Origin: a virus
IMG/VR virus record: IMGVR_UViG_3300023196_001102
Coordinates: 1-48,460 of that record
DNA: 48,460 bases
Strand: one strand, 5' to 3'
In this document: piece by piece, positions 2,768-41,010 of the stretch
How the letters are laid out: every line of letters begins with the position of its first letter
Position numbering within the stretch: position 1 is the stretch's first letter
Position numbers and translations under genes: made by a program
Notes under the pieces: generated by a model
Seen by the model: only the letters and a program-made list of their open reading frames with translations
Database searches by the model: none
Told to the model about the DNA's origin: nothing

Positions 2768-2785
2768 CAGCTAAAGAACTAGAAC

Positions 2786-2811: not shown

Positions 2812-2830
2812 CACGAGTATAAGTAATATT

Positions 2831-7654: not shown

Positions 7655-7657
7655 ATA
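7650..7657 (+). promoter_or_regulatory. T4-type late promoter box
   Basis: An exact TATAAATA overlaps the stop codon of the preceding radical SAM gene. It lies 23 nt before the ATG at 7681. AGGAG at 7668-7672 is the ribosome binding site. The layout is the same as at 2100. Confidence 0.7.
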
Positions 7658-7680
7658 TAGTATATATAGGAGAATTTAGT

Positions 7681-8298: not shown

Positions 8299-8299
8299 T

Positions 8300-11605: not shown

Positions 11606-12018
11606 AATATAAATTTTTAGACTTGCCTGCTGTACCAGAGCATTTAATATTACCAGTTGAACAAGTATTAGAACTTGAAAATATATTTGGTGGGCGTAGC
11701 CCTAATTACACTATACACGAATGTCAAGCGGAATTGGCGGACTATCTTCAAGAACAGTTTCCTGAATATACAAAGTTTCGTTATCAAACACTAGTACATG
11801 GTGTACCTGTACACAAAGACAGAGGACGCACAACAGCTTTAAACTATATTATTGATCCAGGTGGCACCAATGTACACACTATTTGGTATGCTGAAGATCA
11901 AGTAACACCCACATGTGATGTTGTACTAGGTAAAAATCAGTGGCATATATTAGAAGTTGATTCATATCACACTGTTATGAACATAGAAAAGAGGCGCTTT
12001 GCGATTACAATAGCATGA
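11602..12018 (+). CDS. Small 2OG-Fe(II) oxygenase-like protein
   Basis: This is a 138-residue protein. VPVHKDRG gives an HxD motif, LNYIID follows, WHILEVDSYHTV provides a distal His and RRFAITI a terminal Arg. This is the spacing expected of a compact Fe(II)/2-oxoglutarate beta-helix. At 138 residues it is near the lower limit for the fold. It starts within the last codons of the sulfotransferase-like gene (ATGA overlap) and overlaps the next gene by 4 nt. Confidence 0.55.
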   Translation: MKYKFLDLPAVPEHLILPVEQVLELENIFGGRSPNYTIHECQAELADYLQEQFPEYTKFRYQTLVHGVPVHKDRGRTTALNYIIDPGGTNVHTIWYAEDQVTPTCDVVLGKNQWHILEVDSYHTVMNIEKRRFAITIA

Positions 12019-12722
12019 TAGATACAAATAAAATAATATTCTTTACTGGAGCACCAGGAAGTAAATGGAGTGGCGCTAGTGTATTACTAGCCAATACTCC
12101 ACTAATAGATATAAACATTAGTGATCGTACACCAGAGCGTGAGTATGATCATGGTCCACAGTTTAATGGCGTTAAACACATGGGCGCATATTTTGGTCCA
12201 GGATTTGAGTTTGGTGAATGGTTTCATGAACTGTACACTGGAAAATATACTCGTGAACAAGTAATTGCTGAAATAGAATCCGCTTATCCAGAACATGATG
12301 GATATATTATGGTAAAATGTCATCAGTTTGTTTACAGTTTAGATTGGATTGCTGAAACGTTTCCTGAAAGTAAAATTATGATTGTTATGCGACATCCAGA
12401 CGCATGTTGGGATGGTTGGCATGGAGTAGGTGGTATTAAAATTCCATACCCTGATTATACTAAGTTTTATAAAACAACTGAACAAGCAAAAGAGTTAATT
12501 AACCATGAATGTATGTTAGCACGTAAATGGATTTACGAACGTGATTTAGCAGTACATACCAGTACACCTAGACATTGGCGTGATATTTGGCAACTAGACG
12601 ATGCTGATGAAAATCGTCAGTATAATCATAGCCTAATAGGATATCATAATAAAAATGATAATCCAACTGAAAGATTACGTTATGATGTACAAATTAGTTA
12701 CTACAATTTTGAGAGAAAATAA
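12015..12722 (+). CDS. Sulfotransferase-like P-loop protein
   Basis: This is a 235-residue protein. TGAPGSKWSGA near residue 11 matches the sulfotransferase PAPS loop, and IMIVMRHPDACWDGW matches the conserved RxP 3'-phosphate strand. GVGG...YPDYTKF is shared with the protein at 14409, so the two are paralogues. The likely reaction is sulfonate transfer from PAPS to an unknown acceptor. An APS-kinase-like gene that could feed this reaction lies at 16442 on the other strand. Confidence 0.68.
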   Translation: MIDTNKIIFFTGAPGSKWSGASVLLANTPLIDINISDRTPEREYDHGPQFNGVKHMGAYFGPGFEFGEWFHELYTGKYTREQVIAEIESAYPEHDGYIMVKCHQFVYSLDWIAETFPESKIMIVMRHPDACWDGWHGVGGIKIPYPDYTKFYKTTEQAKELINHECMLARKWIYERDLAVHTSTPRHWRDIWQLDDADENRQYNHSLIGYHNKNDNPTERLRYDVQISYYNFERK

Positions 12723-13817
12723 ATGGATTGTGTTGTAATAGTTAAATCAGGAGATGCGTGGTGGGATGATATTGCTCTAAACTATAGTCAGTTAAGTATT
12801 GATCATAGTGTAAGCAGTAGATATAGCCAAAGCAAATATGATTACTGTTTAACAGATGAATTTAATTCAGCTGATTATATTAAGTATGATCGTGTTTTAA
12901 TTATTCAAGCAGGTACTATATTGATATGGGGAAATTATGAAAAGAACATTATTCCCAGACTAAAAAATTATGAGAACATAAACATTTGTAATGGTGCTAC
13001 AGTCTGGCAACCAATGGGAGACGGTGATACTAGTCTTGATATGAATATTCAATCAATTGATACTACTACTGTACAAACATTTATAAACAGTCATAGTGCT
13101 GCGGTTACTAATCTAATAGATGATAGTAATATAAGTTACTTAATGCATAACGAACTTCCAAAATATAGTTCAGTGACTGGCGCAGTGGATTGGGCAATTA
13201 CTTTAAGTAGTGGATTCTTTATCAATGGAATATTAAATCATCACGGTATACACAGTGACACTGTAATACATCATATGGACATAAGCAAGATAAGTTTAGA
13301 TGTTAGAAAATATACTATCCAAGTATGGGATGGTACAGATATAAAAAGTTGGATTAAACACTTACAACAAAAATATCCTAGTATGCAGTTGTTTAATAGA
13401 CACAAGTTTACTGACAGAGATAATGATTATATGGTTATCTGGGAAAATCTACAAGCTGAATTTTCTGATTGGCAGTCACATTGGAAACAATATCAAAGTT
13501 TAGAGCATCACTACCATCGAGTAAACATCAGTAACAAGGCAGATATAGATAAATTATTATCAACTATTACACCTGGTGCGGGTGTAATATGGTGGAACGG
13601 CGCACTGAAACGCATGCCAGGAAACTTACTAAAAGACAGTAATGCCAGTCATCAGTCAGCTATCGAATTTGTACGAACAATAGCAGAGCATAATCCAAAT
13701 ACAATATGTTATGGAAGCGATCATTGTGATAAACAGTTCAATGGCGAACTAGCAAGTACAGTAGCAAATTTAGTAGCAGAGAATAATAGTAGAGAATTGT
13801 TGTGGCAAAAAAAATAA
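12723..13817 (+). CDS. Unknown 364-residue protein of the biosynthetic cluster
   Basis: I do not recognise this protein. The N-terminal part (YDRVLIIQAGTIL) has a weak glycosyltransferase-like feel, but no DxD metal motif is clear. A central hydrophobic segment TLSSGFFINGILNHHG is followed by many His residues. A C-terminal part reads VIWWNGALKRMPGN and then CYGSDHC. No signal peptide is seen. It starts directly after the previous stop (TAA ATG) and overlaps the PP-loop gene by 16 nt, so it belongs to the same transcript. Confidence 0.75.
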   Translation: MDCVVIVKSGDAWWDDIALNYSQLSIDHSVSSRYSQSKYDYCLTDEFNSADYIKYDRVLIIQAGTILIWGNYEKNIIPRLKNYENINICNGATVWQPMGDGDTSLDMNIQSIDTTTVQTFINSHSAAVTNLIDDSNISYLMHNELPKYSSVTGAVDWAITLSSGFFINGILNHHGIHSDTVIHHMDISKISLDVRKYTIQVWDGTDIKSWIKHLQQKYPSMQLFNRHKFTDRDNDYMVIWENLQAEFSDWQSHWKQYQSLEHHYHRVNISNKADIDKLLSTITPGAGVIWWNGALKRMPGNLLKDSNASHQSAIEFVRTIAEHNPNTICYGSDHCDKQFNGELASTVANLVAENNSRELLWQKK

Positions 13818-14416
13818 AATTATTAATATTATTTTGGTTATTAACCAAAATAAAATTACCCACAGGACCTATAGGCATATATCTAAGTGGCGGTAGTGAC
13901 AGTGCAATATTATTTTGGTTAATAGCGTCACAAAGACAGCATGAAGTTGTATTACTTACAGTTGCTAGCGATGATAAAAAATTTAATATAGAGCCTGCTC
14001 TAGCAGTAGTCGAGTGGGTTAATAGCAACACATCAGTAACAATACTAGAGCATTGTGTAACAATAGCGCCAAACTTAGAATCACGCAAAGATTATAGAGA
14101 TCAAGCTACTAATAGTTTAACTAAGCAATGGAATTTAAGTTGCTGGGTAAGTGGAAAAACACTTAATCCAGATGTAAAATTAAAGCATCATGAACAAAGA
14201 AAGACGGACAGAGACACAGTAATGCCTAGAGTAATACACGATCATTTCTATAGTCCGTTTTATAATATTAATAAAAGCCACTTAGCATTGTTGTATAAAA
14301 AATATGAATTAAGTAAACTACATAGTCTAACAGTAAGTTGCGAAACTAGTTACCCACCGTGTGGAGATTGTTGGTGGTGTGCAGAAAGAGAATGGGCATA
14401 CGGCAATTATGTATAA
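13802..14416 (+). CDS. PP-loop ATP pyrophosphatase with QueC-like zinc tail
   Basis: This is a 204-residue protein from a GTG start. SGGSDSA at about residues 29-35 is the PP-loop of N-type ATP pyrophosphatases. The C-terminus (SCETSYPPCGDCWWCAER) keeps the four-Cys zinc site and the following Arg of QueC, the 7-cyano-7-deazaguanine synthase. The DYGQ/RH segment that usually follows the PP-loop in QueC is absent, and the first 30 residues are hydrophobic and basic. It could be a diverged QueC completing the preQ0 pathway with FolE, QueD-like and QueE on the other strand. It could instead be an amidating or thiolating enzyme of this cluster. Confidence 0.65.
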   Translation: MAKKIKLLILFWLLTKIKLPTGPIGIYLSGGSDSAILFWLIASQRQHEVVLLTVASDDKKFNIEPALAVVEWVNSNTSVTILEHCVTIAPNLESRKDYRDQATNSLTKQWNLSCWVSGKTLNPDVKLKHHEQRKTDRDTVMPRVIHDHFYSPFYNINKSHLALLYKKYELSKLHSLTVSCETSYPPCGDCWWCAEREWAYGNYV

Positions 14417-15083
14417 AGGTAAAGATTTAATTATAGCAACTGGCACACCAGGCAGTCGTTGGAGCGGAGCAATTCGATGTATACAAAGTCATACAGCTAT
14501 TAATATCTCAGATGAAGTAAACACTGATAGTTATACCAACGGTGCAAAAGGCTGGCACAGAGGTGCGTATTGGGGGCCAGGACACAATTATGGTACAAAT
14601 TTTGATCGTCTAGATCAATTAAATCGTGACGATGTAATAGCACAATTTCAGGAACCTTTTGATGATTGGGATAGTGGCGTTAAAATAGTTAAAAGTCATT
14701 GGTTTAGTTATCATATACCTCAACTGCGTGAATGGTTTCCTGAAGCAAAGTTCTTAGCATTTTGGATGCCGGATGACTTTTGTTTTGATTGGTGGCATCA
14801 AGTAGGAGGTTGGAATATAACTTATCCTCACTATACTTGGTATGAGAATGACAAGCGTATGAGAGAACAAATTGCTATAGAGAATAAATTTATCCAACAG
14901 CATTTTGATTTACAACAAAATAGTCTAGTAGAACTATTACATAAACTAGGACTGGATAATCAGTTACACAACGAAAAAGAACTTTGTAAACGAGATACAA
15001 AGTTCCAAGATCTTGCAAAAAATAAATCTATTGATCGAGTTTTAAACGACACTGTTCAACGAATTTATACTGGTGTTCTTTAG
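14409..15083 (+). CDS. Sulfotransferase-like P-loop protein
   Basis: From the ATG at 14409, which overlaps the upstream stop as ATGTATAA, the protein has 224 residues. TGTPGSRWSGA near residue 11 is the PAPS loop. WHQVGGWNITYPHYTWY is shared in pattern with the paralogue at 12015. In the second motif, the RHP of the paralogue is replaced by WMPDD, so the 3'-phosphate-binding Arg may be missing. An earlier ATG at 14361 is open but would overlap 56 nt. This is the last gene of the plus-strand cluster. Its TAG shares bases with the stop of the convergent gene ending at 15080. Confidence 0.65.
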   Translation: MYKGKDLIIATGTPGSRWSGAIRCIQSHTAINISDEVNTDSYTNGAKGWHRGAYWGPGHNYGTNFDRLDQLNRDDVIAQFQEPFDDWDSGVKIVKSHWFSYHIPQLREWFPEAKFLAFWMPDDFCFDWWHQVGGWNITYPHYTWYENDKRMREQIAIENKFIQQHFDLQQNSLVELLHKLGLDNQLHNEKELCKRDTKFQDLAKNKSIDRVLNDTVQRIYTGVL

Positions 15084-27297: not shown

Positions 27298-27480
27298 TTA
27301 ATACTCCACCGTTTGTTTTAAATATTGTATTTCAATTTGTTTAGCACTAACTTCTTCACTATAGCCATCAGCGATTCTATAGGTTACTCCTTGCTTATAC
27401 AATTTGATATTTAGTTTGTTAAGATCTTTAATAAGTGTATTAAGTTCCTTAACCATATCTGCTACTGTTGGATCTTTCAT
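27298..27480 (-). CDS. Hypothetical protein, 60 aa
   Basis: The chosen ATG at 27480 overlaps the metK stop (TAATG). An earlier in-frame start lies inside metK. The 60-residue protein is helical (VADMVKELNTLIKDLNKLNI), probably a short coiled coil. Its ribosome binding site is within the last metK codons, in the second copy of the 18-bp repeat. Confidence 0.72.
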   Translation of the reverse strand: MKDPTVADMVKELNTLIKDLNKLNIKLYKQGVTYRIADGYSEEVSAKQIEIQYLKQTVEY

Positions 27481-28571
27481 TACCATCCAATCCTTTCCCA
27501 TGGAACATCTTTGTCGCCAAAGTGTCCGTATGTGCAATTTTCGCTATAGTTAGTATAGTTGAATAAATCAAATCTGTCAATGATTCCTTTTGGTGTCAAA
27601 TCAATCTCACGTTCAATAAAACGTGCAATACTTGCATTGTGTCCATTTGAATCAACATATATGCTTGTGGGTTCTTTAACACCAATAGCATAGCTCAGCT
27701 GAATATTACACCAGTCTGCCATACTGTCTGCTACTACATTCTTCGCAAGCCATCTTGCCATGTAGGCTGCACTTCTGTCGACTTTTGTTGGGTCTTTGCC
27801 ACTAAACGCACCGCCACCATGAGGAGCAAAACCCCCATAAGTATCAACAATAATTTTTCGCCCAGTAACACCAGCATCACCGTCAGGACCACCAATAACG
27901 AAATTTCCAGTAGGGTTAAGATGCCATGTAGTTCTTTCATCGACTAAGTCTCCTAGTTCTTCCATTGCGGCAAGTTTACAAATATGTCTTGCTTCTTCCA
28001 CATTGCCTTGTGTATGCTGTGTACTTATAACAACTTGGTCAATGCGTTTGATTACACCGTCACGTCTTGCACCATAATACTCTACGCTTACTTGACTTTT
28101 AGCATCTGGGCCTAGTATAGCACCACGTTTACTTTTCAAGTTCTTTAGAATTTCGTGACTGTAATGGATAGGTGCTGGCATCATACTGTCTGTATGATTA
28201 CAAGCATATCCAAACATCAAGCCTTGATCACCTGCACCAAAGTCGTCTGTACCTAGAGCAATGTCTCCACTTTGTGCGTGGATCTCATTATAGATATTTA
28301 AATTGTCCCAATGGAATCCATCTTGTTCGTATCCAATTTCTCGAACTTTATCACGAACGATTTGTTTTACTTCGTCCTTGCTTACATTAAAGTTCTTTAC
28401 CTCACCCGCTAACGTTACGTGGTTAGTGGTTACAAGTGTTTCAACAGCAACACGAGTTGTCTCGTCTCCGTTAGCTAGTCCAGCATCCACAAGAGCATCA
28501 GATATCTGATCTGCTACTTTGTCTGGATGACCATCACTTACACTTTCGCTTGTAAAAATATAGTTGTTCAT
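27480..28571 (-). CDS. metK: S-adenosylmethionine synthetase
   Basis: This is a 363-residue protein, slightly shorter than bacterial MetK (about 384). SESVSDGHPDKVADQISDA at the N-terminus, GAGDQGLMFGYA, GGPDGDAGVTGRKI and HGGGAFSGKDPTKVDRSAAY are the hallmark substrate, metal and ATP-binding motifs, and all are intact. It makes SAM from Met and ATP. It lies directly downstream of two DNA methyltransferases and the radical SAM enzyme QueE. A six-member radical SAM cluster lies elsewhere in the window, so a phage-encoded SAM supply makes sense. Confidence 0.97.
   Translation of the reverse strand: MNNYIFTSESVSDGHPDKVADQISDALVDAGLANGDETTRVAVETLVTTNHVTLAGEVKNFNVSKDEVKQIVRDKVREIGYEQDGFHWDNLNIYNEIHAQSGDIALGTDDFGAGDQGLMFGYACNHTDSMMPAPIHYSHEILKNLKSKRGAILGPDAKSQVSVEYYGARRDGVIKRIDQVVISTQHTQGNVEEARHICKLAAMEELGDLVDERTTWHLNPTGNFVIGGPDGDAGVTGRKIIVDTYGGFAPHGGGAFSGKDPTKVDRSAAYMARWLAKNVVADSMADWCNIQLSYAIGVKEPTSIYVDSNGHNASIARFIEREIDLTPKGIIDRFDLFNYTNYSENCTYGHFGDKDVPWERIGW
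27483..27500. repeat. 18-bp direct repeat, copy 2
   Basis: This is identical to 27270-27287. Here it encodes the last residues of MetK and also serves as translation initiation region for the 60-residue gene. Confidence 0.85.
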
Positions 28572-28583
28572 TTATTAACCTTT

Positions 28584-29690
28584 TTATTTTGTAAAGACGT
28601 ATACGCCTTCAAACTTTTCTCGACCTGCTAGTTTATCATTACCAACACCAGGCCGTGTGTTAAGCATCATCTTAATTGTTTCTTTGTGTTTAAATCCAAG
28701 TTTTTCTGCGGTACTAATCCAGCGATCTACAACCTTGAATTCGTCTTTTGTAGTTTTATAGTCTGCTATATTAGTGGCAAATATACCATCACTGTTAAGT
28801 CCATCGTATATACGCCGCATAGTTGGAACAGTATAGCCTTCAAACCATTCGTCCAGTGTGTTAAATTGTACCATACATTGTGTAGGCTCGTCACTATACT
28901 TTTCCAAGTTAAAGTAAGGAGGGCTACTAAACGCTAAGTCTATATCTTCTGGTTGAAAGTCTTGTGATGTTTCACAGTGTATTTCAGCATTACTGCCAAT
29001 AATACTATTTAAATAGTTTAAGTAATGATATGTTTCTGTATTAGGATCTGTACCAATATACTTATAACGCATGTTACTACTGGTTGTTCCTAGTAGTCTT
29101 CCACCATATCCACAACTATAATCATATACTGTACCCCAAATAACTGGGCATAAACGTTCAACAATAGCTTTGGCATTTTGTGCTTTGAAGTTAGTTACAT
29201 TTTCACCTGTAACTAGTTCTAAACTTCGGCGCATTGCTGTGGGATAGCATAGTTTGTTGCCTTCTCTAAACTCAAAACAAATACGGATAGCACGTTTAAG
29301 TTTGGCATCATCAAAGAACCTATCTTTAAGACTGTTACTTCCACGCCCTTTAGGTTCTGCTGTTTGCATATTAGTAAAGATAAAACGATTAATAGTTTGT
29401 CCAGCATTGTTGCCTAACCCTAATCTATCGCCGTCTACTTTTGTATATGACTTATTACTAAAGTTGCTTACAGCATTTTTAAGTCCTACTTCTGTGTAAT
29501 ACAGAATAGGAACAATACCTCTTGTACGATAAAGATTAAAAACAGCATCAATAGTACCAGCAGGATCTCGTTCATAAGTTTCTGTCGTGTGTTTATCAAA
29601 CTCTGGATACAAGTCTTCGTATCCTGTAAACTCATCACCAAAGATGTATTCAGACTTTATATTCCAGAACTTGTATATTTTGTCGATCAT
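28584..29690 (-). CDS. DNA methyltransferase-like protein with SPPY motif
   Basis: This is a 368-residue protein. YDYSCGYGGRLLG is the SAM-binding glycine-rich motif, and FSSPPYFNLE is the catalytic motif IV; SPPY is typical of N4-cytosine or some N6-adenine DNA methyltransferases. Motif I precedes motif IV. About 180 N-terminal residues come before the catalytic core and may be a recognition domain. The protein at 30870 has the same organisation (paralogue). The target base and sequence cannot be told. It starts by TAATG overlap with a 28-codon ORF. Confidence 0.82.
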   Translation of the reverse strand: MIDKIYKFWNIKSEYIFGDEFTGYEDLYPEFDKHTTETYERDPAGTIDAVFNLYRTRGIVPILYYTEVGLKNAVSNFSNKSYTKVDGDRLGLGNNAGQTINRFIFTNMQTAEPKGRGSNSLKDRFFDDAKLKRAIRICFEFREGNKLCYPTAMRRSLELVTGENVTNFKAQNAKAIVERLCPVIWGTVYDYSCGYGGRLLGTTSSNMRYKYIGTDPNTETYHYLNYLNSIIGSNAEIHCETSQDFQPEDIDLAFSSPPYFNLEKYSDEPTQCMVQFNTLDEWFEGYTVPTMRRIYDGLNSDGIFATNIADYKTTKDEFKVVDRWISTAEKLGFKHKETIKMMLNTRPGVGNDKLAGREKFEGVYVFTK

Positions 29691-29776
29691 TACAGTTGTT
29701 TACGTATCTTCTCATAATTGATTGGTGCTTGCATTGCTTTACGCAATTGTTCGTTCTCTTTAAGTCCCCCAGGCAT
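29690..29776 (-). CDS. Possible mini-ORF between queE and methyltransferase
   Basis: This 28-codon frame (MPGGLKENEQLRKAMQAPIN and on) starts inside the end of queE and stops by TAATG on the methyltransferase start. Its main support is the coupling geometry. It may only serve to carry ribosomes from queE to the next gene. Confidence 0.35.
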   Translation of the reverse strand: MPGGLKENEQLRKAMQAPINYEKIRKQL

Positions 29777-30656
29777 TTCCGAATAGCGAAATATGCAATC
29801 TTGGGGTGAATCGCCATCCTTTTTCCATACAGACTTGCGCGACTTCTTGAACATTGAGAACATACTCTTCCGAGCGTCCTCCAAGCGGCATACAATATAC
29901 TGGACACTCAACGCCGATGTCACGATATGCTTGAACAGCTCTCCCAGCTTCTTCAATGTCTGCACGATCAGCAACAACAAATTTAAAATAAATGTCACTG
30001 CCAGCAACAGTGGAATAATTAAGAGCAACATCAGGTTTGATAGCGTCTTCCCAAGATTCTCCACTAACGCTAAGTTTAGGGCTACAACTCCATGTGACTG
30101 TAATTCTGTCACTGTCATTGAGATAGTTGTAGAGGTCGTCGTGTAATACTTGTGTAGTGTTTGTTTCAAATGTGACATTTTTTAAATCCTTCATACGTGG
30201 ATGTTCGAACAGCTCTACGTAAAGTCGTTGCCACGCTAACAACGGCTCACCACCTGTCATAATAAGATGGATATCCTGACCGTTATCCATTGTCCACTTG
30301 CCTTCTGGAGTAAGCGACAGCAGATGTTCTACTACTTCTTCAATCTCTGCAAGTCGGTTAAAGTCTTTAAACTCGGGATAGATACTAGCATAAGTGTCGC
30401 AACCTGTATGAATAATAGGTAAGTCTGTAAACTTTTCAGTTCGTTCAACAATGCCATCATCTAGCAAGTCTTTTACTTCTTGATTGTATCGTTGTCCTGC
30501 TTCATGTTTCTCTGCACGACTAGGCTCGTCACGACCAAGTCCAAAGTTCATACAACGAAAATTACAACCGAAGGTGCGTAGGAATACACTGGGTACTCCT
30601 ACAAACTTACCTTCACCTTGTACGCTATAAAATGCTTCACTATATCTAAGTTTCAT
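29760..30656 (-). CDS. queE: 7-carboxy-7-deazaguanine synthase, radical SAM (QueE)
   Basis: This is a 298-residue protein from MKLRYSEAF. An upstream ATG is open but lies in the preceding gene. SVQGEGKFVGVPSVFLRTFGC, the GGEP motif (MTGGEPLLAW) and the C-terminal RLHISLFGNAWG are diagnostic of QueE, which converts carboxytetrahydropterin to CDG. The cluster motif is unusual: CNFRC is followed by MNF instead of a third Cys two residues on. A candidate third Cys occurs about 50 residues later in HTGCDTYAS, a variation I recall in phage QueE proteins. It is flanked by two DNA methyltransferases. Confidence 0.9.
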   Translation of the reverse strand: MKLRYSEAFYSVQGEGKFVGVPSVFLRTFGCNFRCMNFGLGRDEPSRAEKHEAGQRYNQEVKDLLDDGIVERTEKFTDLPIIHTGCDTYASIYPEFKDFNRLAEIEEVVEHLLSLTPEGKWTMDNGQDIHLIMTGGEPLLAWQRLYVELFEHPRMKDLKNVTFETNTTQVLHDDLYNYLNDSDRITVTWSCSPKLSVSGESWEDAIKPDVALNYSTVAGSDIYFKFVVADRADIEEAGRAVQAYRDIGVECPVYCMPLGGRSEEYVLNVQEVAQVCMEKGWRFTPRLHISLFGNAWGT

Positions 30657-30876
30657 CTTCGTCTTTCTTTCGTACACTGTAGCCGCCATGCTCTAATTCT
30701 TCCCAAATCAATGTATCGCCTACGCCCCATCCTATTTGATTAAGAGAATCAGGGGGAAACTCTATAAAGAGTTCTTTTGTTTCTGTTTCACCGTTCTCTT
30801 GAATTTCAATAATCCAGCTATTATCACTTATTCTACTATATGTATACTTTTTTGTCAATTTAATTCCTTTCAACAT
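30646..30876 (-). CDS. Hypothetical protein, 76 aa
   Basis: The start at MLKGIKL overlaps the upstream stop (ATGTTGA). The sequence ELFIEFPPDSLNQIGWGVGD followed by LIWEE resembles the small AbrB/SpoVT-like pattern FPPxxLxxLGWxxGD common in marine phages, so weak DNA binding is possible. It is coupled between the methyltransferase and queE. Confidence 0.72.
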   Translation of the reverse strand: MLKGIKLTKKYTYSRISDNSWIIEIQENGETETKELFIEFPPDSLNQIGWGVGDTLIWEELEHGGYSVRKKDEDET

Positions 30877-31793
30877 TTCCAAATATATATTTTGTCTTGT
30901 TTCTTTTTGCCTGTTTGTTGGCCCAGTTGTTGCTTTAAATCTTCTTCATCATCACATACTGGTAGTCCGTTTGCCACAGCATCATCATACATTTTAGGAC
31001 TAATGTTAAAGCACACATGTCCTCCTGCTTGTATATTATCAACACACTTTTGCCAGATAGGAATAAAGAATCCTTTATAAAATGCTTCATCACTATCCCA
31101 TACTTCCATGTGTTCATATATTTCTAGATTAACATATGGAGGACTTGTTAATACAAAGTCATAATCTAACTTACTAAAGTCTACATCAAGTGCGCTTTGC
31201 CAAATCATTTCTAATTTACCAGATTGTTCTTCTTCTATTAGTGGATTGTTAAATTCACTATAGCCGCTAAGATATTTAATCATACGATCATATGCTGATT
31301 TCATATTAGTATTTGTATCAATGCCAGTGTAGTTAATGCCTAATGCCCAAGCACCAAGCATACGCCCGCCCCAACCTGCTGTAGGATCTAATACACTCTT
31401 AACTGAATACTTCTTGTATAGATACTTAGCTGTTGTACTTTTAAACATTACAATGCTACCAAGATTAATTCTAAAGCACTCAAAAATATTACCAGCGGCA
31501 GTACGTCCGCCTCTGTTACGCTTACGTGCGCTATCTATAAGTTTTTTCCATGCTGGTTTATCAGCATATAGCTCATGAATAGTTTTACCTTTTTCACGCT
31601 TACAGTTTAGTAAGTTTTTAAATTGAAAGTGATATAGGAAAGGATTACCATAAAAGTTATTGCGATTTTCATCAGCATCAAAGTTCTTTAAGTTTTTAAG
31701 ATCTCGATTTAGTTCATCATTACTAATCAGTTTGTGATCTTCCACATCTGTTATTGTGACACTATCTAGATTTTCATTAACTGGTTTAAGCAT
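30870..31793 (-). CDS. DNA methyltransferase-like protein with SPPY motif
   Basis: This is a 307-residue protein. LDPTAGWGGRMLG is the SAM-binding motif and LTSPPYVNLE the catalytic motif IV. It is related in layout to the protein at 28584, which has the same GGRxLG and SPPYxNLE phrases. It is the first gene after a clear sigma70-like promoter and is probably early, heading the operon that continues through queE, the second methyltransferase and possibly metK. It could protect phage DNA or methylate host targets. Confidence 0.83.
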   Translation of the reverse strand: MLKPVNENLDSVTITDVEDHKLISNDELNRDLKNLKNFDADENRNNFYGNPFLYHFQFKNLLNCKREKGKTIHELYADKPAWKKLIDSARKRNRGGRTAAGNIFECFRINLGSIVMFKSTTAKYLYKKYSVKSVLDPTAGWGGRMLGAWALGINYTGIDTNTNMKSAYDRMIKYLSGYSEFNNPLIEEEQSGKLEMIWQSALDVDFSKLDYDFVLTSPPYVNLEIYEHMEVWDSDEAFYKGFFIPIWQKCVDNIQAGGHVCFNISPKMYDDAVANGLPVCDDEEDLKQQLGQQTGKKKQDKIYIWKC

Positions 31794-34077: not shown

Positions 34078-34260
34078 TTACTTGTCCTTTGCTGGAGGAT
34101 TTGCTGCTGGTCTTCCACGCTTGCCTACTTTAAAAGTATACACTATATCATCTGGATCTGTTCTTGCGTGTGCTGGTAACACAGTTACTTTATTACCTTT
34201 TTTAGCTAAAAATTCTTTTACTAATCTTGCGTCTTCTTCTGTTTTTTCTGCCTTAGCCAT
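34078..34260 (-). CDS. Small basic protein with AT-hook-like KRGRP motif
   Basis: This is a 60-residue protein. KEFLAKKGNKVTVLP is followed by KVGKRGRPAANPP. The KRGRP core suggests minor-groove DNA binding, as in the larger protein at 17658. I associate similar short proteins with T4-like marine phages. It may be a regulator or nucleoid-type protein (inference). Confidence 0.68.
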   Translation of the reverse strand: MAKAEKTEEDARLVKEFLAKKGNKVTVLPAHARTDPDDIVYTFKVGKRGRPAANPPAKDK

Positions 34261-34591
34261 TGTAGTTTCCTTTCTCTGGTATTACGTGACGTACACCGCC
34301 ACTGGGGTCTTCCATATCACCCGTTCTTCTTGGAATGAGATGGATGTGTGGATAAGCAACAGTTTGTCCTGCGGCCTCACCTACATTTTGTCCTATGTTG
34401 AACGCATCACAATATCCACGGTCAACCCAATCGTAGCCCCATTTATATGCGGCTTCGAAACATTTACTTAAATCCTGCCAACTTTGTTCTTTTGGGACAA
34501 AAAGAATATGTCCTTCTGTAACAGGAAATCCGTCTTTGTAGACTGTAAAATCTTTAGTATCTATTAGTACGTCAGTCCACGGTTTATTCAT
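34253..34591 (-). CDS. HIT-family nucleotide hydrolase/transferase
   Basis: This is a 112-residue protein. The catalytic His triad appears as YPHIHLIPR near residue 82, preceded by NIGQNVGEAAGQTVA, the classical HIT lead-in. HIT proteins act on nucleoside phosphoramidates or dinucleoside polyphosphates. The GGVRHVIPE tail resembles a bacterial HIT subgroup. The start at MNKPWTDV (34591) is chosen over an ATG four codons earlier. A phosphoribosyltransferase gene precedes it, so it may take part in nucleotide salvage. Confidence 0.87.
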   Translation of the reverse strand: MNKPWTDVLIDTKDFTVYKDGFPVTEGHILFVPKEQSWQDLSKCFEAAYKWGYDWVDRGYCDAFNIGQNVGEAAGQTVAYPHIHLIPRRTGDMEDPSGGVRHVIPEKGNYNG

Positions 34592-35177
34592 AATCAGCAA
34601 CATTCTCCCAGGGATATACTAACCAAACATCCTCTTCTGCTTTATTAATTTCATGACAAGTATAAGCACATTGCCCTCTAAATTCACTAGCTAAGTTATC
34701 TGTTAGTGTGGCAAATCTTACGTTTTGTCCCCAAACTGATTGCCAACGATCATTGCCTGGTAAACAACTTGATTCCCAGTCATCTATAATCCAGTTAAAT
34801 GTAGCACCAGTATCGTTAATGTCGTCTATAATTAAAATATTTTTTCCGTTAATGGGAAATTGGGTAATTTCTTCGCCAGCACTTGCTTGGATGTCTGCTT
34901 GATAGTCACGTAATTTATATTCGTCGTATCCAAATGCATCTTCTGCCATCCAAAGATTACTTTCTGGACCCATATCTCTACCGTCATCACGTAAACTTAC
35001 TTTAAGTGCTTCGCAACGTATGCCAGTCATATTACTAATAATAGTAGCAGGTACATTGCCGCCTCTTGTGAGTCCTACAATGTAATCAGGACGCCAATTG
35101 TCGGTGTACATTTGATTAACAATGCTTACGCACATACGTTCAACGTCAGTCCAGCTATAATAGTGTTTTTTAATCAT
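34584..35177 (-). CDS. Phosphoribosyltransferase-family protein
   Basis: This is a 197-residue protein. IVGLTRGGNVPA is the first active-site loop, and ILIIDDINDTGATF is the PRPP-binding motif of type I phosphoribosyltransferases. The substrate base is not obvious; xanthine/hypoxanthine-type or a regulator-like PRTase is possible. It lies between FolE/HNH and HIT genes in a nucleotide-oriented region. The start overlaps nothing upstream, and the end overlaps the HIT gene by 8 nt. Confidence 0.88.
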   Translation of the reverse strand: MIKKHYYSWTDVERMCVSIVNQMYTDNWRPDYIVGLTRGGNVPATIISNMTGIRCEALKVSLRDDGRDMGPESNLWMAEDAFGYDEYKLRDYQADIQASAGEEITQFPINGKNILIIDDINDTGATFNWIIDDWESSCLPGNDRWQSVWGQNVRFATLTDNLASEFRGQCAYTCHEINKAEEDVWLVYPWENVADYE

Positions 35178-35178: not shown

Positions 35179-35475
35179 TTATCTCCCGTGGTATTGCCAC
35201 ATTACTGCATTACATATAGCATGTACTGCTCCCTCTGTCAAGTCAGAAATGTGATCATGTTGTAAATGAATAGGATTTTTTAGAAAGCCAGGAGGGAAGA
35301 GTCGCCAGTTAATCTTCTTTTCTGTTATGTGTGATGGAGCATTACTAAGTAATGACTCCTGGCACCAATAACACTTCCCATCTTGTTCTTGTATATACTG
35401 CTCACGGATCTTCCTGCGATGATGTGGCGTACATTCAGTATACTTTACTGGTAGAGTATAAGGAGCCTTGCTCAT
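35179..35475 (-). CDS. HNH-like endonuclease, 98 aa
   Basis: GKCYWCQESLL provides one zinc-type Cys pair, and HLQHDHISDLTEGAVHAICN provides the DH...N pattern of an HNH/endonuclease VII-like ββα-metal core. The second Cys pair expected for a full zinc site is reduced to a single Cys (AICNAV). It may resolve DNA branches like T4 endonuclease VII or be a nicking enzyme. It starts on the last base of the folE stop. Confidence 0.7.
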   Translation of the reverse strand: MSKAPYTLPVKYTECTPHHRRKIREQYIQEQDGKCYWCQESLLSNAPSHITEKKINWRLFPPGFLKNPIHLQHDHISDLTEGAVHAICNAVMWQYHGR

Positions 35476-36161
35476 TATCTCGGAGCAAATTGTTGCTGAA
35501 GTTTAATATTATCAAAAAACTCTTGTTTACATCCTGGGTCGCTGTGAAAGCTGCCTTTGAGTACAGTTGTCTGTGTAAGACTACTGTGTGCCATAATACC
35601 ACGGTTCTCACAACAACCATGTGTGGCTTGGATATAAACGCCTACATCTTTACTGCCAGTTGCTGTCATTATTTCACGAGCAATATCTGTCGCCAACTCT
35701 TCTTGTAGTGTACCTCGACGTGCGCACCATTGCGCTATACGAGTATATTTAGATAGTCCAATAAGTTTATCAGCAGCAATAATACCTATATACGCTACAC
35801 CACTCACAGGCTGATGATGATGTGAACACATACTTTTAAGTTCACTGCGTACTACTAACATACCTTCATAGCGATCATCACTGTCATTAGGAAATGCTGT
35901 TGCTGGCGGCATAGTCTCATAACGCCCAGCCATTAGTTCATTAAAATACATTTTTGCTAAACGTTTAGCTGTGCCTTTTGAATTAGGATCATTCTCACGA
36001 TCAATTAGCAGCGCATCTAATACGCTTTCAAATGCTACAGTTGCGTCTTCAATCAGTTCTTCTTTGTCGCCTTTGCGCAATACTTTACTGATGTTGTCGC
36101 CTGCCCAATGCCGAATGTTTGCTTCTAACAAACGTTGTTTAATTTCGGAAGTCTTTGTCAT
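35475..36161 (-). CDS. folE: GTP cyclohydrolase I
   Basis: This is a 228-residue protein. MCSHHHQPVSG carries the zinc Cys and His residues, GLSKYTRIAQWCARRGTLQEELA is the conserved core, and HGCCENRGI supplies the second zinc Cys. It converts GTP to dihydroneopterin triphosphate, the first step toward preQ0. In phages with QueD, QueE and DpdA genes, this enzyme feeds 7-deazaguanine DNA modification, and all three types are present nearby. An AAGGAAC ribosome binding site is present. Confidence 0.95.
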   Translation of the reverse strand: MTKTSEIKQRLLEANIRHWAGDNISKVLRKGDKEELIEDATVAFESVLDALLIDRENDPNSKGTAKRLAKMYFNELMAGRYETMPPATAFPNDSDDRYEGMLVVRSELKSMCSHHHQPVSGVAYIGIIAADKLIGLSKYTRIAQWCARRGTLQEELATDIAREIMTATGSKDVGVYIQATHGCCENRGIMAHSSLTQTTVLKGSFHSDPGCKQEFFDNIKLQQQFAPR

Positions 36162-36174: not shown

Positions 36175-37236
36175 TTATTTTAATATGTTGTCGATCATAA
36201 CACTACTATTTAGATAATCTCTAATAAGAATGTTACGTTGTTCTTCTAGTTTTTCTGTATACTGATCAAAGTTATCTAGTTTATCTTGGATAAAGGCTAC
36301 TAGCTGTGTTCTATTTTCCACATATGCTACATAGTCTTTAGTCCACTCACTTGGATATTTAAACTCTGGCAGATACATTTCGCTGTAACTACAGCGATCC
36401 GGCACGATTGGAATAGCACCTGTTAGTACTGCTTCCATTACACTAATGCCTAGGTTTTCATGTAAAGCACAACTAAAAATTGCTTTACACCCTCCCATCT
36501 TAGCATAATATTCAGATTTGTCAAGGTTCATTTTTTGTGTAATGACCATGGCAAAGTCGTTAGATAAGTCTTCAGCAATTGCTGGTTGTTTATCATCGTT
36601 ATAACGATGTGGCCACATAACTGTATTTGTTTTAGCTGTAGTTTGATACTGCGTTAAGTTATCAACAATGAGCTCGTGTGGTTGTCCACTACGAATAGCT
36701 TTATTATAATTACCTTGCGGAATATTTAAGTTACGTAAGAACATGTCTTTGTGGAAGTCTGTAGCATAGTAATTATAATCACTACTATGATACCAGCTCT
36801 TCTCAACATGGTTAGGCCAGTCTGGTTGCATCTTATATCCAAGTATGTCACTAGGATCGTATGCTCCGGCATGCCAAATGCTGTGTATCTCTACTGGAAT
36901 ATCTAGTAAGTCACTCATGTATTTGATAGGAGTAATAATAAAGTTCCACGCATCAGTTATCAGAAACTTATCACCTGCTCGAACTTTGCCATTACTAAAG
37001 AGCTTACTTACCGCTGTAGTCTGTGTTGATTTGTATACGTTAGTAGCACCAAAGTCAAGGAACGCACCTTCTGTTCGCACATCAGGTTTAAAGTCCTCGC
37101 CATCAATTGTTACTACATGATAATTTAAATTACGTTCAGCTATCTGCTGTTCCAGTACTAGTGGAATATTATCATACCATTGCTTAGAATAACGTTGGTC
37201 AATCGGTTCTATCGGTATAATATAAATTGTGTTCAT
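36175..37236 (-). CDS. GT-B glycosyltransferase
   Basis: This is a 353-residue protein. The C-terminal half contains SCALHENLGISVMEAVLTGA and then PIVPDRCSYSEMY, the nucleotide-sugar-binding EX7E-type motif of GT-B enzymes. The phrase ALHENLGISV...PDRCSYSE resembles that of the tRNA-queuosine mannosyltransferase family (DUF3524/QTMAN). It sits between folE and the nucleotidyltransferase-cupin gene, next to dpdA. Transfer of a sugar to a 7-deazaguanine in DNA is an attractive inference. Virion or host-surface glycosylation is the alternative. Confidence 0.82.
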   Translation of the reverse strand: MNTIYIIPIEPIDQRYSKQWYDNIPLVLEQQIAERNLNYHVVTIDGEDFKPDVRTEGAFLDFGATNVYKSTQTTAVSKLFSNGKVRAGDKFLITDAWNFIITPIKYMSDLLDIPVEIHSIWHAGAYDPSDILGYKMQPDWPNHVEKSWYHSSDYNYYATDFHKDMFLRNLNIPQGNYNKAIRSGQPHELIVDNLTQYQTTAKTNTVMWPHRYNDDKQPAIAEDLSNDFAMVITQKMNLDKSEYYAKMGGCKAIFSCALHENLGISVMEAVLTGAIPIVPDRCSYSEMYLPEFKYPSEWTKDYVAYVENRTQLVAFIQDKLDNFDQYTEKLEEQRNILIRDYLNSSVMIDNILK

Positions 37237-37991
37237 TAGTCTCTTCTTTCAATATCAAGTTCGGATAGTTCATTACCCATCCATACTTCAATTACTTTTG
37301 CGACACCCTTGCCAACATTAGTTGCTTTGTGCCAAGTGTGTACAGGAATATCAATACTTTGTCCTGATGTATACAGTATACTTGATTTGTCGCCATTGTC
37401 AAACTCTAAATCCATACGTATATCGCCTTCAACTACATGCCAGTGTTCACTACGTATAAAGTGTCGCTGATCGCTTAGTGGCGTTTCAGTACCAAATGCT
37501 AGTTCTTTAACAGCCCAACCTGGACCATTATGTAACACTGTATAACTACCCCAAGCACGTTGTGTTGTAGGCTGACTCCACTCTTTAAGGATCCAACTAC
37601 TACTATTCTTTTTGTCTTCTCCACCAACACCAAAAGCAAATTCAACTTCATCATAAACCATTTCTGGAATATTGTCTGAAGTGCGATCCCCGCCATTGGC
37701 AAAGATTACAGTGTCACTTCTTGTTTTAGTAGATAGTATTTGAAAGATTGCGTTACATGCTGTATCGTCATCGTCGTTAAATCCAATCACTTGATCAACA
37801 CAAGATAGCTCTTCAATAATATTACAACGTTCATGGAAAGGCATAAATGGCCTACCCTTTTTACGGGTAAGCCACTCATCTGAGTTAACAGCAACTACAA
37901 GTTTGTCTCCAAGTTTTCTAGCTGACTTAAAGTATGCGATATGTCCTGAATGTAATGGATCAAATCCACCAGATACAACTACAATTTTCAT
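37236..37991 (-). CDS. Cytidylyltransferase-cupin fusion protein
   Basis: This is a 251-residue protein. Residues 1-150 form a nucleotidyltransferase domain with GGFDPLHSGHIAYF (the HxGH motif) as in glycerol-phosphate cytidylyltransferase and RfaE. Residues about 165-245 form a cupin: RSEHWHVVEG, then DIPVHTWHKATN, with metal-binding His as in mannose-6-phosphate isomerases. The fusion points to activated sugar or polyol synthesis, probably as donor for the next gene, a glycosyltransferase (1-nt overlap). A second stand-alone cytidylyltransferase lies at 40564. Confidence 0.84.
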   Translation of the reverse strand: MKIVVVSGGFDPLHSGHIAYFKSARKLGDKLVVAVNSDEWLTRKKGRPFMPFHERCNIIEELSCVDQVIGFNDDDDTACNAIFQILSTKTRSDTVIFANGGDRTSDNIPEMVYDEVEFAFGVGGEDKKNSSSWILKEWSQPTTQRAWGSYTVLHNGPGWAVKELAFGTETPLSDQRHFIRSEHWHVVEGDIRMDLEFDNGDKSSILYTSGQSIDIPVHTWHKATNVGKGVAKVIEVWMGNELSELDIERRD

Positions 37992-39499
37992 ACAGTACTC
38001 TCCATTGATTCCAAGAAGTCAATTGCTTCAGCTTCTTGTTCAGCTGACATTTCATTTGACTCTTCTGATACTACATCATCTACTTCAAATAAGTTATTAA
38101 AACTACCTGCGCTTGATGTTTGTAATTTCTGACCACTGAAGTTAGCAAGCATTGACTCTGCTTCATCCAGCATTGTCATAGGTGTCTCACTGCGGAACAG
38201 TTGATCAATAAATTGTGTCATGTAAACAATGTTACGTGGCACATATGGACTAAACACTTCATCTTTACTAGTTGCTTTTAGTTTACGCCATTGTCTGTAG
38301 TCTGTACTTACAGTAGCATTTACCATATCAGTTAGTGCGTTAGCACGTTGTACACTTTCAATATGACTGTACACATTGTGCGACATTAGTAGCATATAAC
38401 TAAAACTATCCCAACTTGTCTTGCCTTCTTTGCCAATCTTATTCAGCATACCTGGCGCATAGTGACAAATGTCACCCAAGTTAAGTCTTTCACCAATTGG
38501 ACTACCAAACGGAAACTGTTGTGTGCTACCAGCTAGGTTTTTACTGTCCATTGCTTTGTCCATAACATAACCAAAGCGGTCATTCTTATGTACGTGTTGT
38601 GTGTACATTGTACCATTTGCTGTTGCTAAGAAAGGACTCGCACAGTCAAACATAACATTGATGTCTTCGTTAACATGCTCACGTAAACTGCGTTGGATTG
38701 CTGTATACGCTGCTGCCCATTCCAGTCTACCAATACCCAAGTAGTGTAACACATCACGTTTACCACGCTCTAGTTGCTGGTCATCACGCATCTTAATAAG
38801 TGTACGTAGTACAATATTAATATCGTTCTTAGCACTACCACCAAAAGCAAAGCCTTCAAGATCATGATGTTTCATACTCTCGTACCAGTGTTCTGCTTCA
38901 GCCCAATTGCGCCCTTGCATAACATTAAGATACTTTGTCTGGTATTTGCGGTTTTTCTTAAACCAGTTTACATTAAAGTCAGTGTACTCTAAACATTCAT
39001 TAAATGATGAAATACCTGTGCGCTCTGTAAATGTAGGATCTGCCGCTAGTGTTGGAATATCCAGGATCATACTATAATCACCTGTGTGTTCCAACCAGTT
39101 TAAGATCTTCTGCCGCAAACTATCATCAGTTTTAAAGTTATCCCAATCGCATTGGATAACACCTTTAATAATCTGAAAGCCGCCACTGTCACAAAGCATA
39201 AATGTTTTGTCACGATCACGGCCTTGTACCATTGCGTCTGATTCATTAGCTTTATCTAGATTAAGTTGAGCATGACCTGCGGAGTATAACCCCCACTTAT
39301 AACTATAGTAGGCATCCTTCTCGTTGAGAAAGTTCATGCCTTCCATACCAGTTTCAAAACCTGCTGGCATACGATCAGCAGGCACATAGTTAGGATCAGC
39401 TTTTTGTTTTGCGATAAAGTTATTGTAGAACGTACTAATACTAGGCAAAAATACTGCGTAGTCCTTGTTACGTTCTGTTAGGTTTACACGAGTTGACAT
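37988..39499 (-). CDS. dpdA: DpdA-like DNA deazaguanine transglycosylase
   Basis: From MSTRVNLTER the protein has 503 residues. It is related to tRNA-guanine transglycosylases. MLCDSGGFQ at residues 101-109 is the TGT substrate-pocket motif with the catalytic-type Asp, GFAFGGSAKN is the second motif and GIGRLEWA with MFDCASP follows (second Asp). This phage branch exchanges guanine in DNA for preQ0 or related 7-deazaguanines. FolE, QueD-like and QueE in the same window supply precursor steps, and a QueC-like protein is at 13802. It overlaps the next gene by 4 nt. Confidence 0.88.
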   Translation of the reverse strand: MSTRVNLTERNKDYAVFLPSISTFYNNFIAKQKADPNYVPADRMPAGFETGMEGMNFLNEKDAYYSYKWGLYSAGHAQLNLDKANESDAMVQGRDRDKTFMLCDSGGFQIIKGVIQCDWDNFKTDDSLRQKILNWLEHTGDYSMILDIPTLAADPTFTERTGISSFNECLEYTDFNVNWFKKNRKYQTKYLNVMQGRNWAEAEHWYESMKHHDLEGFAFGGSAKNDINIVLRTLIKMRDDQQLERGKRDVLHYLGIGRLEWAAAYTAIQRSLREHVNEDINVMFDCASPFLATANGTMYTQHVHKNDRFGYVMDKAMDSKNLAGSTQQFPFGSPIGERLNLGDICHYAPGMLNKIGKEGKTSWDSFSYMLLMSHNVYSHIESVQRANALTDMVNATVSTDYRQWRKLKATSKDEVFSPYVPRNIVYMTQFIDQLFRSETPMTMLDEAESMLANFSGQKLQTSSAGSFNNLFEVDDVVSEESNEMSAEQEAEAIDFLESMESTV

Positions 39500-39500: not shown

Positions 39501-39839
39501 TTATGCTGCTCGTTTCTGATACACACCTACATGAATCTTTAGTTTCTTATCACTACGTTCTTGTGACATTTTGATACTTACGTCATATGTAATAGCGTTA
39601 TCACGGATATTACTATAGATGTTAAAGTCATTAATTAGACCTACGTATCTAAGATCATTCAAATACGTTGTAAATAGACGGCGAACAGTTCGTTCACTTC
39701 CGTCATTGGTTGCAAGAATACCATCATATGGTTCGATAATCTTAATAAGATCCCATTTGATGTCGTTAACGCTTACTCGCCCTTGGCGAAGTTCACGGAT
39801 ATTTGTGCCTAGACTATACATAGCTACACGTTGCTCCAT
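39501..39839 (-). CDS. Conserved hypothetical protein, 112 aa
   Basis: The start at MEQRVAMYS (39839, with GAGG upstream) is preferred. The ATG at 39821 gives a shorter 8-nt overlap with the queD-like gene and is possible. SLGTNIRELRQGRVSVNDIKW, then ERTVRRLFTTYLNDLRYVGLIND and KKLKIHVGVYQ look like a helical DNA-associated domain, but no family can be named. It sits between the QueD-like protein and DpdA and is translationally coupled to both. Confidence 0.72.
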   Translation of the reverse strand: MEQRVAMYSLGTNIRELRQGRVSVNDIKWDLIKIIEPYDGILATNDGSERTVRRLFTTYLNDLRYVGLINDFNIYSNIRDNAITYDVSIKMSQERSDKKLKIHVGVYQKRAA

Positions 39840-40257
39840 TTTCCCCATCCTCACTAATAGTGATTGTCATTTTGCGGTTGGGATATTTTGTGTTAATTGT
39901 ATCTGCAAGATCATCACAAATCATCTCACAGGATTTAAAATCAAGTTGCAGAGTTCCGTCTGCATAGAGGCTTTCCAACCATCTTTTGAATTGGATAAAT
40001 TCAACATCTCGATCGTCATGAAATACTTCAAGTTCTACCTTAAAGTGGAAAATATGTCGATGTATGTATCCTAGGAAACTTACATCTTGTTCATCACCAG
40101 TTGCCAACTTAGGGTCATCTAGTGCTGCTGGATATTTGTGTAAACCTTCTTTGCGGAATGTTACCCAAATGTTAGTGCTTGATTTCTTCATCTTAGCATC
40201 CTCTTCTCTCATACGCCTAAGCATATAATCATAATAACCTTCACGATTAGTCGTCAT
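39814..40257 (-). CDS. QueD/PTPS-like protein
   Basis: From MTTNREGYY the protein has 147 residues. GLHKYPAA and YIHRHIFHFKVELEV supply three His in the position of the QueD zinc site (H...HGH). EFIQFKRWL corresponds to the conserved DFxxLK, and SCEMICDDLA with ISEDGENGA to the C-terminal active-site Glu region. The catalytic Cys that normally lies four residues before HGH is absent. It probably makes carboxytetrahydropterin, feeding QueE, but the missing Cys leaves that open. It overlaps the upstream gene by 11 nt. Confidence 0.72.
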   Translation of the reverse strand: MTTNREGYYDYMLRRMREEDAKMKKSSTNIWVTFRKEGLHKYPAALDDPKLATGDEQDVSFLGYIHRHIFHFKVELEVFHDDRDVEFIQFKRWLESLYADGTLQLDFKSCEMICDDLADTINTKYPNRKMTITISEDGENGATCSYV

Positions 40258-40426
40258 TTTCTGAAACGTCGATTTTCTTTTCAAGACGTTGAATAGTTTG
40301 CAACAACTCCCAGAGTTTCCAATCTACAGCTTTTGCAAGTTCCATCACCTGTGTTCGAAATGCCGCATCAGTCATTTCATCAGGAATTACTGACGAATCT
40401 TCAATTACACGTATTTTTTTAACCAT
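40247..40426 (-). CDS. Small coiled-coil ORF, 59 aa
   Basis: This is a 59-residue gene with a strong AGGAG ribosome binding site. It begins MVKKIRVIEDSSVIPDEMTD and ends with a helix (WKLWELLQTIQRLEKK). Its stop overlaps the queD-like start (ATGACGACTAA). The good initiation signals and coupling make it convincing. The function is unknown. Confidence 0.8.
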   Translation of the reverse strand: MVKKIRVIEDSSVIPDEMTDAAFRTQVMELAKAVDWKLWELLQTIQRLEKKIDVSENDD

Positions 40427-40607
40427 TATGTTCTCCTAATTGGTTAGTTAGTTTTACTATCTCCTGTTTTAGGAGCAGTTTTTCTTTCTTAAGTTTTTTA
40501 ATACTAAGTTCAGCACTAGTATGTTTATACAACTGATCTATCTGTTTGTCAAGCTCTTTGTGCTTACTTTCTAAACTTTTTAACCGGTGTTCGATTTTTG
40601 GGGGCAT
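40419..40607 (-). CDS. DUF465/YdcH-like coiled-coil protein, 62 aa
   Basis: This is a 62-residue helical hairpin. EHRLKSLESKHKELDKQID followed by KKLKKEKLLLKQEIVKL is the DUF465 pattern, ending in LKKxKLxLKxEI. Such proteins are small and of unknown role in bacteria. It overlaps the cytidylyltransferase gene upstream by 44 nt and the next gene by 8 nt. Confidence 0.72.
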   Translation of the reverse strand: MPPKIEHRLKSLESKHKELDKQIDQLYKHTSAELSIKKLKKEKLLLKQEIVKLTNQLGEHNG

Positions 40608-41010
40608 TTTCCACCCTTTCCCTTAAATCACTTGTACTGAACCTATGATCTCTTCTATTGAAGTGAAGTTCAATACCTCGTTTACGACAAGTTTCCTTGC
40701 CAGTGAAATCCTTTTCTCGATATTCATCACCTAACATGCGTACATTTATATTATACATATTTAGAATATCAATCAAGTCTTGTTCAGTCTGATATGTGAT
40801 AATTTCATCTACATACTTAACTGCGCTTAGTTGTAAATGTCGTTCAACTAAACTTTGTACTGGTGTATTTTTTTGATCCGGTCTATCAATAGTTGGATCA
40901 GTTTGTAATCCAACTATTAGATATTCACAATGCTCTTTAGCTTCACGTAACATAGCGATATGCCCTGCGTGAAGCAAGTCAAATACACTACACGTAAACC
41001 CAACTCGCAT
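40564..41010 (-). CDS. Cytidylyltransferase, TagD-like
   Basis: This is a 148-residue protein. TCSVFDLLHAGHIAML contains the HAGH nucleotide-binding motif, and HRFSTSDLRERV corresponds to the RTxGISTT region. This is a complete small nucleotidyltransferase of the glycerol-3-phosphate cytidylyltransferase type. It activates a phosphorylated alcohol or sugar with CTP. It sits directly behind the sliding clamp gene (1-nt overlap) and may serve the glycosyltransferase pathway at 36-38 kb. Confidence 0.88.
   Translation of the reverse strand: MRVGFTCSVFDLLHAGHIAMLREAKEHCEYLIVGLQTDPTIDRPDQKNTPVQSLVERHLQLSAVKYVDEIITYQTEQDLIDILNMYNINVRMLGDEYREKDFTGKETCRKRGIELHFNRRDHRFSTSDLRERVENAPKNRTPVKKFRK

Follow-up and report, generated by a model that had tools for sequence, protein, structure and literature searches.

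A candidate phage DNA-hypermodification module that pairs a DpdA-like transglycosylase with a queuosine mannosyltransferase-like glycosyltransferase

The 7-deazaguanine marks known from phages are small (nitrile, amine, amide, carboxyl, methyl, and formyl derivatives). DpdA enzymes in other phages act on DNA (PMC6884629), and the word "glycosyl" does not occur in the text of that paper. The tRNA-queuosine alpha-mannosyltransferase, QTMAN (PF12038), also modifies a 7-deazaguanine (PMC12518689). The deazaguanine system of Pseudomonas phage PA5oct has already been noted, with no mention of its glycosyltransferase (PMC7824862). In a literature search that left out two key papers, we found no description of a glycosylated deazaguanine in DNA.

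We analyzed a linear virus record of 48,460 bases (IMGVR_UViG_3300023196_001102; "the window"), in which a glycosyltransferase (GT) gene lies close to a gene for a DpdA/TGT-like guanine transglycosylase. Like the phage DpdA systems described before (Hutinet 2019, PMC6884629), this system has FolE, QueE, often QueD, and a DpdA/TGT-like enzyme; unlike them, it usually has no QueC and includes an extra QueD-like T-fold protein and a QTMAN-like GT. We consider it probable that these genes form a DNA-hypermodification module in which the GT glycosylates a DpdA-inserted 7-deazaguanine after replication.

All module genes are on the minus strand, in the transcription order sliding clamp, second nucleotidyltransferase (CT2), T-fold protein, small ORF, DpdA, a nucleotidyltransferase-cupin fusion (CT-cupin), GT, and FolE. 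The gene for FolE, a GTP cyclohydrolase I that carries out the first step to 7-deazaguanines (35475-36161; PF01227 E 1.2e-38), starts 3′ of the GT gene (36175-37236, 353 amino acids) after a gap of 13 nt. The GT gene overlaps that of CT-cupin (37236-37991) by 1 nt (TAATG), and CT-cupin overlaps DpdA (37988-39499) by 4 nt. FolE, GT, CT-cupin, and DpdA thus make up a tight operon. The first-pass annotation placed GT and CT-cupin between FolE and DpdA with overlaps of 1-4 nt, and its coordinates and junctions are exact, as is its DpdA end (the start codon is an ATG at 39499). A small conserved ORF (39501-39854) lies between DpdA and the T-fold gene (39814-40284, start codon uncertain); the latter, a third core gene, was absent from that annotation. 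Downstream of FolE are, in order, an ORF that weakly matches endonuclease VII, a phosphoribosyltransferase similar to xanthine phosphoribosyltransferases (34584-35177; PF00156 E 2.9e-8), and a HIT-family hydrolase (34253-34603; PF01230 E 2.9e-10). Farther on is a QueE-like radical SAM enzyme, a predicted 7-carboxy-7-deazaguanine (CDG) synthase (29760-30656; phrog_2076 E 1.4e-49), which NCBIfam QueE models match below their cut-off. Promoter-like sites were no more numerous in the window than in shuffled sequence.

The GT has a weak Pfam match (PF00534 E 0.011), and its AlphaFold model (pLDDT 91.3, pTM 0.88) has a GT-B fold, with MshA (3c4q, E 4.1e-10) and BshA (5d00, E 4.4e-10) as Foldseek matches. 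The Arg/Lys phosphate-binding pair and the E-x7-E motif of GT4 retaining enzymes are present; R211, K216, and E260-x7-E268 are invariant together with H122 (alignments A1/A4, 28 and 32 sequences). Searching PDB sequences with profiles of the GT, DpdA, and T-fold families turned up no useful relative.

The first-pass annotation had pointed out that the GT resembles queuosine mannosyltransferase. Scanned for the GT family, 84,980 species of bacteria and archaea yielded nine close and five remote relatives, and all four of the remote relatives tested are QTMAN (PF12038 E 1e-54 to 1e-62; L068-L071). Because that scan ran on motif patterns, a separate GT4 profile control was added, in which the GT profile was run against every long ORF at the QTMAN loci and at the loci, in six genomes, that encode about 28 other GT4 proteins. 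QTMAN was the sole match of the GT profile (E about 1e-17 to 1e-19), and none of the roughly 28 other GT4 proteins matched. Alignment of the GT and QTMAN profiles with hhalign (probability 99.4, E 2.7e-21) covers 146 columns in the donor-binding half. By these comparisons the resemblance is real and specific, and the phage GT appears to be related in its donor-binding half to QTMAN rather than to other GT4 enzymes. In the phylogenetic placement that the annotation had called for, QTMAN (support 100/99) neighbors the phage GTs; the phage group itself is weakly supported (80/42) and branches are long, so we draw the link from the profile tests, with which the tree agrees.

The two families share a GT4-type donor-binding half with the motif WxHR...DKxPE, a G-[IL]-S-V-x-E stretch, and PDRxxYxE. 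In contrast, the N-terminal half of the phage GT is different: QTMAN_N (PF12038) has no match in the window GT or in the six relatives scanned. We therefore regard the phage GT as a sister family and not as QTMAN itself, and acceptor recognition by QTMAN is not transferable to it. No queuosine-specific enzymes were noticed at the phage GT loci, which is a further difference.

The DpdA/TGT-like protein belongs to a divergent subfamily that is weakly linked to TGT by its sequence matches (TIGR00449 E 3.6e-4 and PF01702 E 0.053, both weak and below the curated cut-off); its profile has no PDB match by sequence. In an alignment of 20 sequences (A2, residue numbers omitting the first Met), DSGGxQ, D146, G195, and D284 are invariant and Q194 nearly so. 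We take the DSGG and Asp residues to correspond to TGT catalytic motifs, including the nucleophile Asp. Comparison by hhalign with a 424 amino acid DSGG protein next to the GT of Acidovorax phage ACP17 gave a probability of 93.6. We know of no member of this subfamily with a published activity; by analogy with other phages, we infer that it inserts a 7-deazaguanine into phage DNA.

It could instead act with the GT on tRNA, remodeling the anticodon base of a host or phage tRNA, which would then be glycosylated in the manner of QTMAN. The substrate of QTMAN is tRNA, the transglycosylase is a TGT relative, and the GT is specifically QTMAN-related, all as this reading predicts. We nevertheless judge it improbable, since hosts usually carry a TGT already, the GT lacks QTMAN_N, and the module genes adjoin DNA polymerase and sliding clamp genes in most lineages. 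The DpdA enzymes of other phages, moreover, act on DNA (PMC6884629); that precedent and the replication-gene neighborhood make DNA the favored substrate.

When IMG/VR was scanned, the profiles of GT, DpdA, and T-fold protein each matched at least about 600 stretches. We called a locus well flanked if 8 kb or more of sequence was available at both ends, and counted partner genes within 10 kb. Of the 60 well-flanked GT loci among the matches listed, 57 have DpdA, all 60 the T-fold gene, 57 FolE, 56 QueE, and 46 the phosphoribosyltransferase. The GT is therefore not a routine gene of phages without DpdA, the finding that the first-pass annotation had named as one that would refute its proposal. 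Conversely, the GT was present at 22/22 well-flanked loci in the DpdA scan, and in the T-fold scan the GT was present at 31/32 and DpdA at 32/32, again among the matches listed. GT and DpdA are on the same strand in all 231 of the listed loci that have both, and DpdA is upstream in 228. Among the exceptions, the GT lies elsewhere in the genome in L205, and DpdA does so in L250 and in Sinorhizobium phage Phosso; for L245 and L249, no DpdA was found.

Loci share ancestry, and we also counted lineages (GT identity below 85%, flanks of at least 5 kb, partners within 8 kb). Among the matches listed, 70 of 77 GT lineages have DpdA, 76 have the T-fold gene, 69 have FolE, and a minority (23) have the HIT protein. 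With about a hundred phage lineages showing the GT/DpdA association, the arrangement goes far beyond chance.

Two close relatives of the window, L351 and L352 (clamp 77%, polymerase 74%, and MT2 94% identical), lack DpdA, GT, the T-fold protein, and FolE, but keep CT2, CT-cupin, the small ORF (74% identity), and the phosphoribosyltransferase. Searched throughout, their contigs (57 and 91 kb, perhaps incomplete) contained no GT and no DpdA. Going by this joint absence, GT, DpdA, T-fold protein, and FolE act as one unit, to which the nucleotidyltransferases do not belong. The comparative case that the QTMAN-like GT acts with DpdA is strong, and because such a GT is nearly always beside DpdA, the DNA of these phages probably carries a sugar-coated guanine analogue.

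The same data bear on the idea that the GT builds or modifies surface polysaccharide, lipopolysaccharide, or a glycan of the virion, and that it came to lie beside DpdA by accident in a hotspot of auxiliary genes. Polysaccharide building is common among GT4 enzymes, nucleotide-sugar genes are close by, and such clusters occur in cyanophages (PMC7824862). An accident of this kind is very hard to reconcile with a near-universal linkage to DpdA and the T-fold gene across diverse phages and two bacterial islands, with loss of the GT together with DpdA while nearby sugar genes remain, and with kinship to a GT that acts on a nucleobase and not to the other GT4 enzymes; we hold it to be highly improbable.

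CT-cupin combines an HldE-C-like domain (PF01467 E 3.9e-16) with a mannose-6-phosphate isomerase type cupin (PF01050 E 1.6e-18), and CT2 (40564-41010) is an HldE-C/TagD-like nucleotidyltransferase (PF01467 E 5.2e-13). The gene at 40564 had been called a further cytidylyltransferase; the nucleotidyltransferase domain stands, but the best score is to HldE/RfaE domain II. For both proteins that domain (a sugar-1-phosphate nucleotidyltransferase) scores best and TagD next, all below cut-offs (TIGR02199 E 2e-21 for CT-cupin and 1e-21 for CT2, at 76-77 bits versus a cut-off of 181.5). TIGR01518 is also below its cut-off, and no equivalog-level match names a substrate for either protein. The two had been proposed as dedicated partners of DpdA and the GT. 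Both persist in L351/L352, from which DpdA, GT, the T-fold protein, and FolE are missing, and the CT domain has relatives in cyanophages. By the first-pass annotation's own criterion, occurrence in phages without DpdA, this counts against CT-cupin; we reject both proteins as core partners and treat them, with the small ORF, as accessory.

At least one nucleotide-sugar family is found within 8 kb of the GT in 55 of 77 lineages among the matches listed, a count that stands without a matched GT-free background. By family these are SDR epimerase (24 lineages), nucleotidyltransferase (21), UGD (14), phosphomannomutase (9), MocA (9), ADH (9), and DegT (7). The sugar may vary between phage lineages, and the L351/L352 deletion indicates that some nucleotide-sugar genes have other uses. 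A 176 amino acid protein family without a Pfam or PHROG match is frequent near the GT in relatives and was not seen in the window.

The T-fold protein (phrog_17812) has no PF01242 match. Its predicted model (pLDDT 86.5) has the order beta-beta-alpha-alpha-beta-beta of a T-fold, and the best Foldseek match is E. coli QueD (4ntk, E 1.2e-4); the hhalign comparison with QueD is weak (probability 39.6). It shares with QueD/PTPS the fold, a conserved His triad, and a C-terminal Glu (H49, H75, H77, C119-E120, and E145 are invariant), but it lacks the catalytic Cys and Asp-His of QueD, which are invariant (C29 and D72-H73) in alignment A7. Also unlike QueD, it often co-exists with a true QueD.

T-fold genes occur with FolE and with QueD and/or QueE in Cellulophaga phiST, Aeromonas Ahp1, and Rhizobium RHph_I1_18, where no GT was recognizable near the T-fold gene, and a T-fold gene adjoins FolE in Vibrio phages Bakedbeans and D479. 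The T-fold protein therefore seems to belong to QueC-less systems in general, with the GT as a decoration added in a subset. It may correspond to the CDG decarboxylase DpdL. DpdL, DpdM, and DpdN are reportedly described in Cui 2023. The literature that we found, an incomplete coverage with Cui 2023 and a 2024 review outside it, contained no text joining these names with deazaguanine.

QueD is present in 22 of 37 records. QueC scored over its cut-off in one of the 37 (records that are possibly fragments, and whose hosts may supply QueC); the exception is a PP-loop ORF in the window (13802-14416), which fails the QueC equivalog. With QueC absent from almost all relatives, the inserted base may not be preQ0 but CDG or one of its derivatives. 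PreQ0 would form if host QueC supplied the missing step; otherwise the base would remain CDG-like or undergo decarboxylation. CDG would offer a carboxylate as a possible acceptor, and a decarboxylated base would have no obvious handle. QueF was considered as the source of an amine handle and rejected (0 of 19 records over cut-off).

In the proposed pathway, CDG would be made by FolE and QueE, with QueD from elsewhere in the genome or from the host. The T-fold protein would probably process or deliver the CDG-level base, in place of QueC. The DpdA/TGT-like enzyme would swap this base for guanine in replicated phage DNA, and the GT would then move a sugar onto the inserted base from a nucleotide-sugar donor, which may be a host NDP-sugar or a product of sugar-nucleotide enzymes that the phage encodes. 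The analysis establishes the genes, their intact catalytic motifs, predicted folds, and kinship, and the co-occurrence and joint loss; from these we infer DNA as the substrate and this order of steps, as well as the donor, an acceptor atom on the base, and protection from restriction.

The order could also be reversed, with the GT adding the sugar to free 7-deazaguanine or to a nucleotide precursor before DpdA inserts the decorated base. The DpdA and GT genes are adjacent and sometimes overlap, and the frequent phosphoribosyltransferase neighbor could suggest base or nucleotide chemistry. QTMAN, however, acts following queuine insertion, and we know of no other deazaguanine system that inserts a glycosylated base, so that glycosylation ahead of insertion seems unlikely.

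Several phage isolates carry both genes. DpdA and GT are adjacent in the Pseudomonas PA5oct/Paride group. The GT of Acidovorax ACP17 has its DSGG/DpdA-like neighbor, that of Xanthomonas X1 a neighbor annotated as queuine tRNA-ribosyltransferase, and GT and DpdA also occur in Sinorhizobium Phosso and Synechococcus BUCT-ZZ01 (in the last, DpdA was judged by the DSGG motif alone). In two bacterial islands, on chromosomal contigs of Aurantimonas sp. VKM B-3413 and Devosia naphthalenivorans, DpdA and the GT accompany a Vut_1-like transporter that scores below the Pfam cut-off. PA5oct, Paride, ACP17, Phosso, and X1 have all been cultured, and in the first four the annotation of the GT gene reads hypothetical or just glycosyltransferase; the Paride paper has no mention of deaza, base modification, or nanopore. 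More tentatively, and with less than even confidence, we suggest that a large phage family and some bacterial islands carry in their DNA an undescribed glycosylated 7-deazaguanine that is made from CDG and bypasses preQ0. Its sugar would be specific to the lineage (uronic, amino, heptose-like, or polyol), with an unusual linkage enabled by the T-fold protein.

If the proposed modification exists, the DNA that carries it would be expected to resist restriction and nucleases, and anti-phage enzymes specific for the sugar would have a target. The logic of tRNA base glycosylation would be reused on DNA, the proposed substrate of the phage GT, in contrast to the tRNA substrate of QTMAN. Post-replicative glycosylation of a modified base would be shared with the T4 alpha- and beta-glucosyltransferases and with phage cytosine arabinosylation (PMC13216743, PMC13390438). 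Those systems modify cytosine and use other GT families, whereas here a QTMAN-like GT would modify 7-deazaguanine, and the sugar would make it a bulky purine counterpart of the glucosylated cytosine of T4.

The genes for DpdA, the QTMAN-related glycosyltransferase (GT), the QueD-like T-fold protein, and FolE are jointly missing from two close relatives, L351 and L352 (10001-18400), which retain both nucleotidyltransferases (CT-cupin and CT2); this is a natural deletion of the DpdA-GT-T-fold-FolE module. The T-fold protein gene adjoins FolE in Aeromonas, Cellulophaga, Vibrio, and Rhizobium phages (L336, L341, L335, L337, and L340), some of which also have QueD and/or QueE, and no GT is recognizable near the pair in these loci. 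In about half of the lineages a gene for a 176 amino acid protein (L283:8273-8800 and relatives, alignment A8) sits between DpdA and the T-fold gene. This family has neither a Pfam nor a PHROG match and was not seen in the window; a match to it is present in ACP17.

The window encodes a PP-loop protein (13802-14416, + strand), seldom present in relatives, with an SGGSDS motif and a CxxCxxC at its end; it passes PF06508 (QueC) and does not pass the QueC equivalog. QueE is close to MetK (27480-28571, - strand) and to genes for two N4/N6-type DNA methyltransferase-like proteins with SPPY motifs (28584-29690 and 30870-31793, - strand), which are found in few relatives. On the + strand, opposite to the module, a series of roughly 18 genes (2-15083) looks like a biosynthetic cluster carried by the phage; several of its products are radical SAM proteins and two are nitroreductase-like, and an AMP-ligase-like fragment is among the others.

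Chromosomal contigs of Aurantimonas (L064:7685-11062) and Devosia (L065:8078-11041) encode DpdA, a Vut_1-like protein of the queuosine-precursor transporter family, and GT, with a phage integrase gene nearby in Aurantimonas. These loci are possibly a bacterial version of the system.
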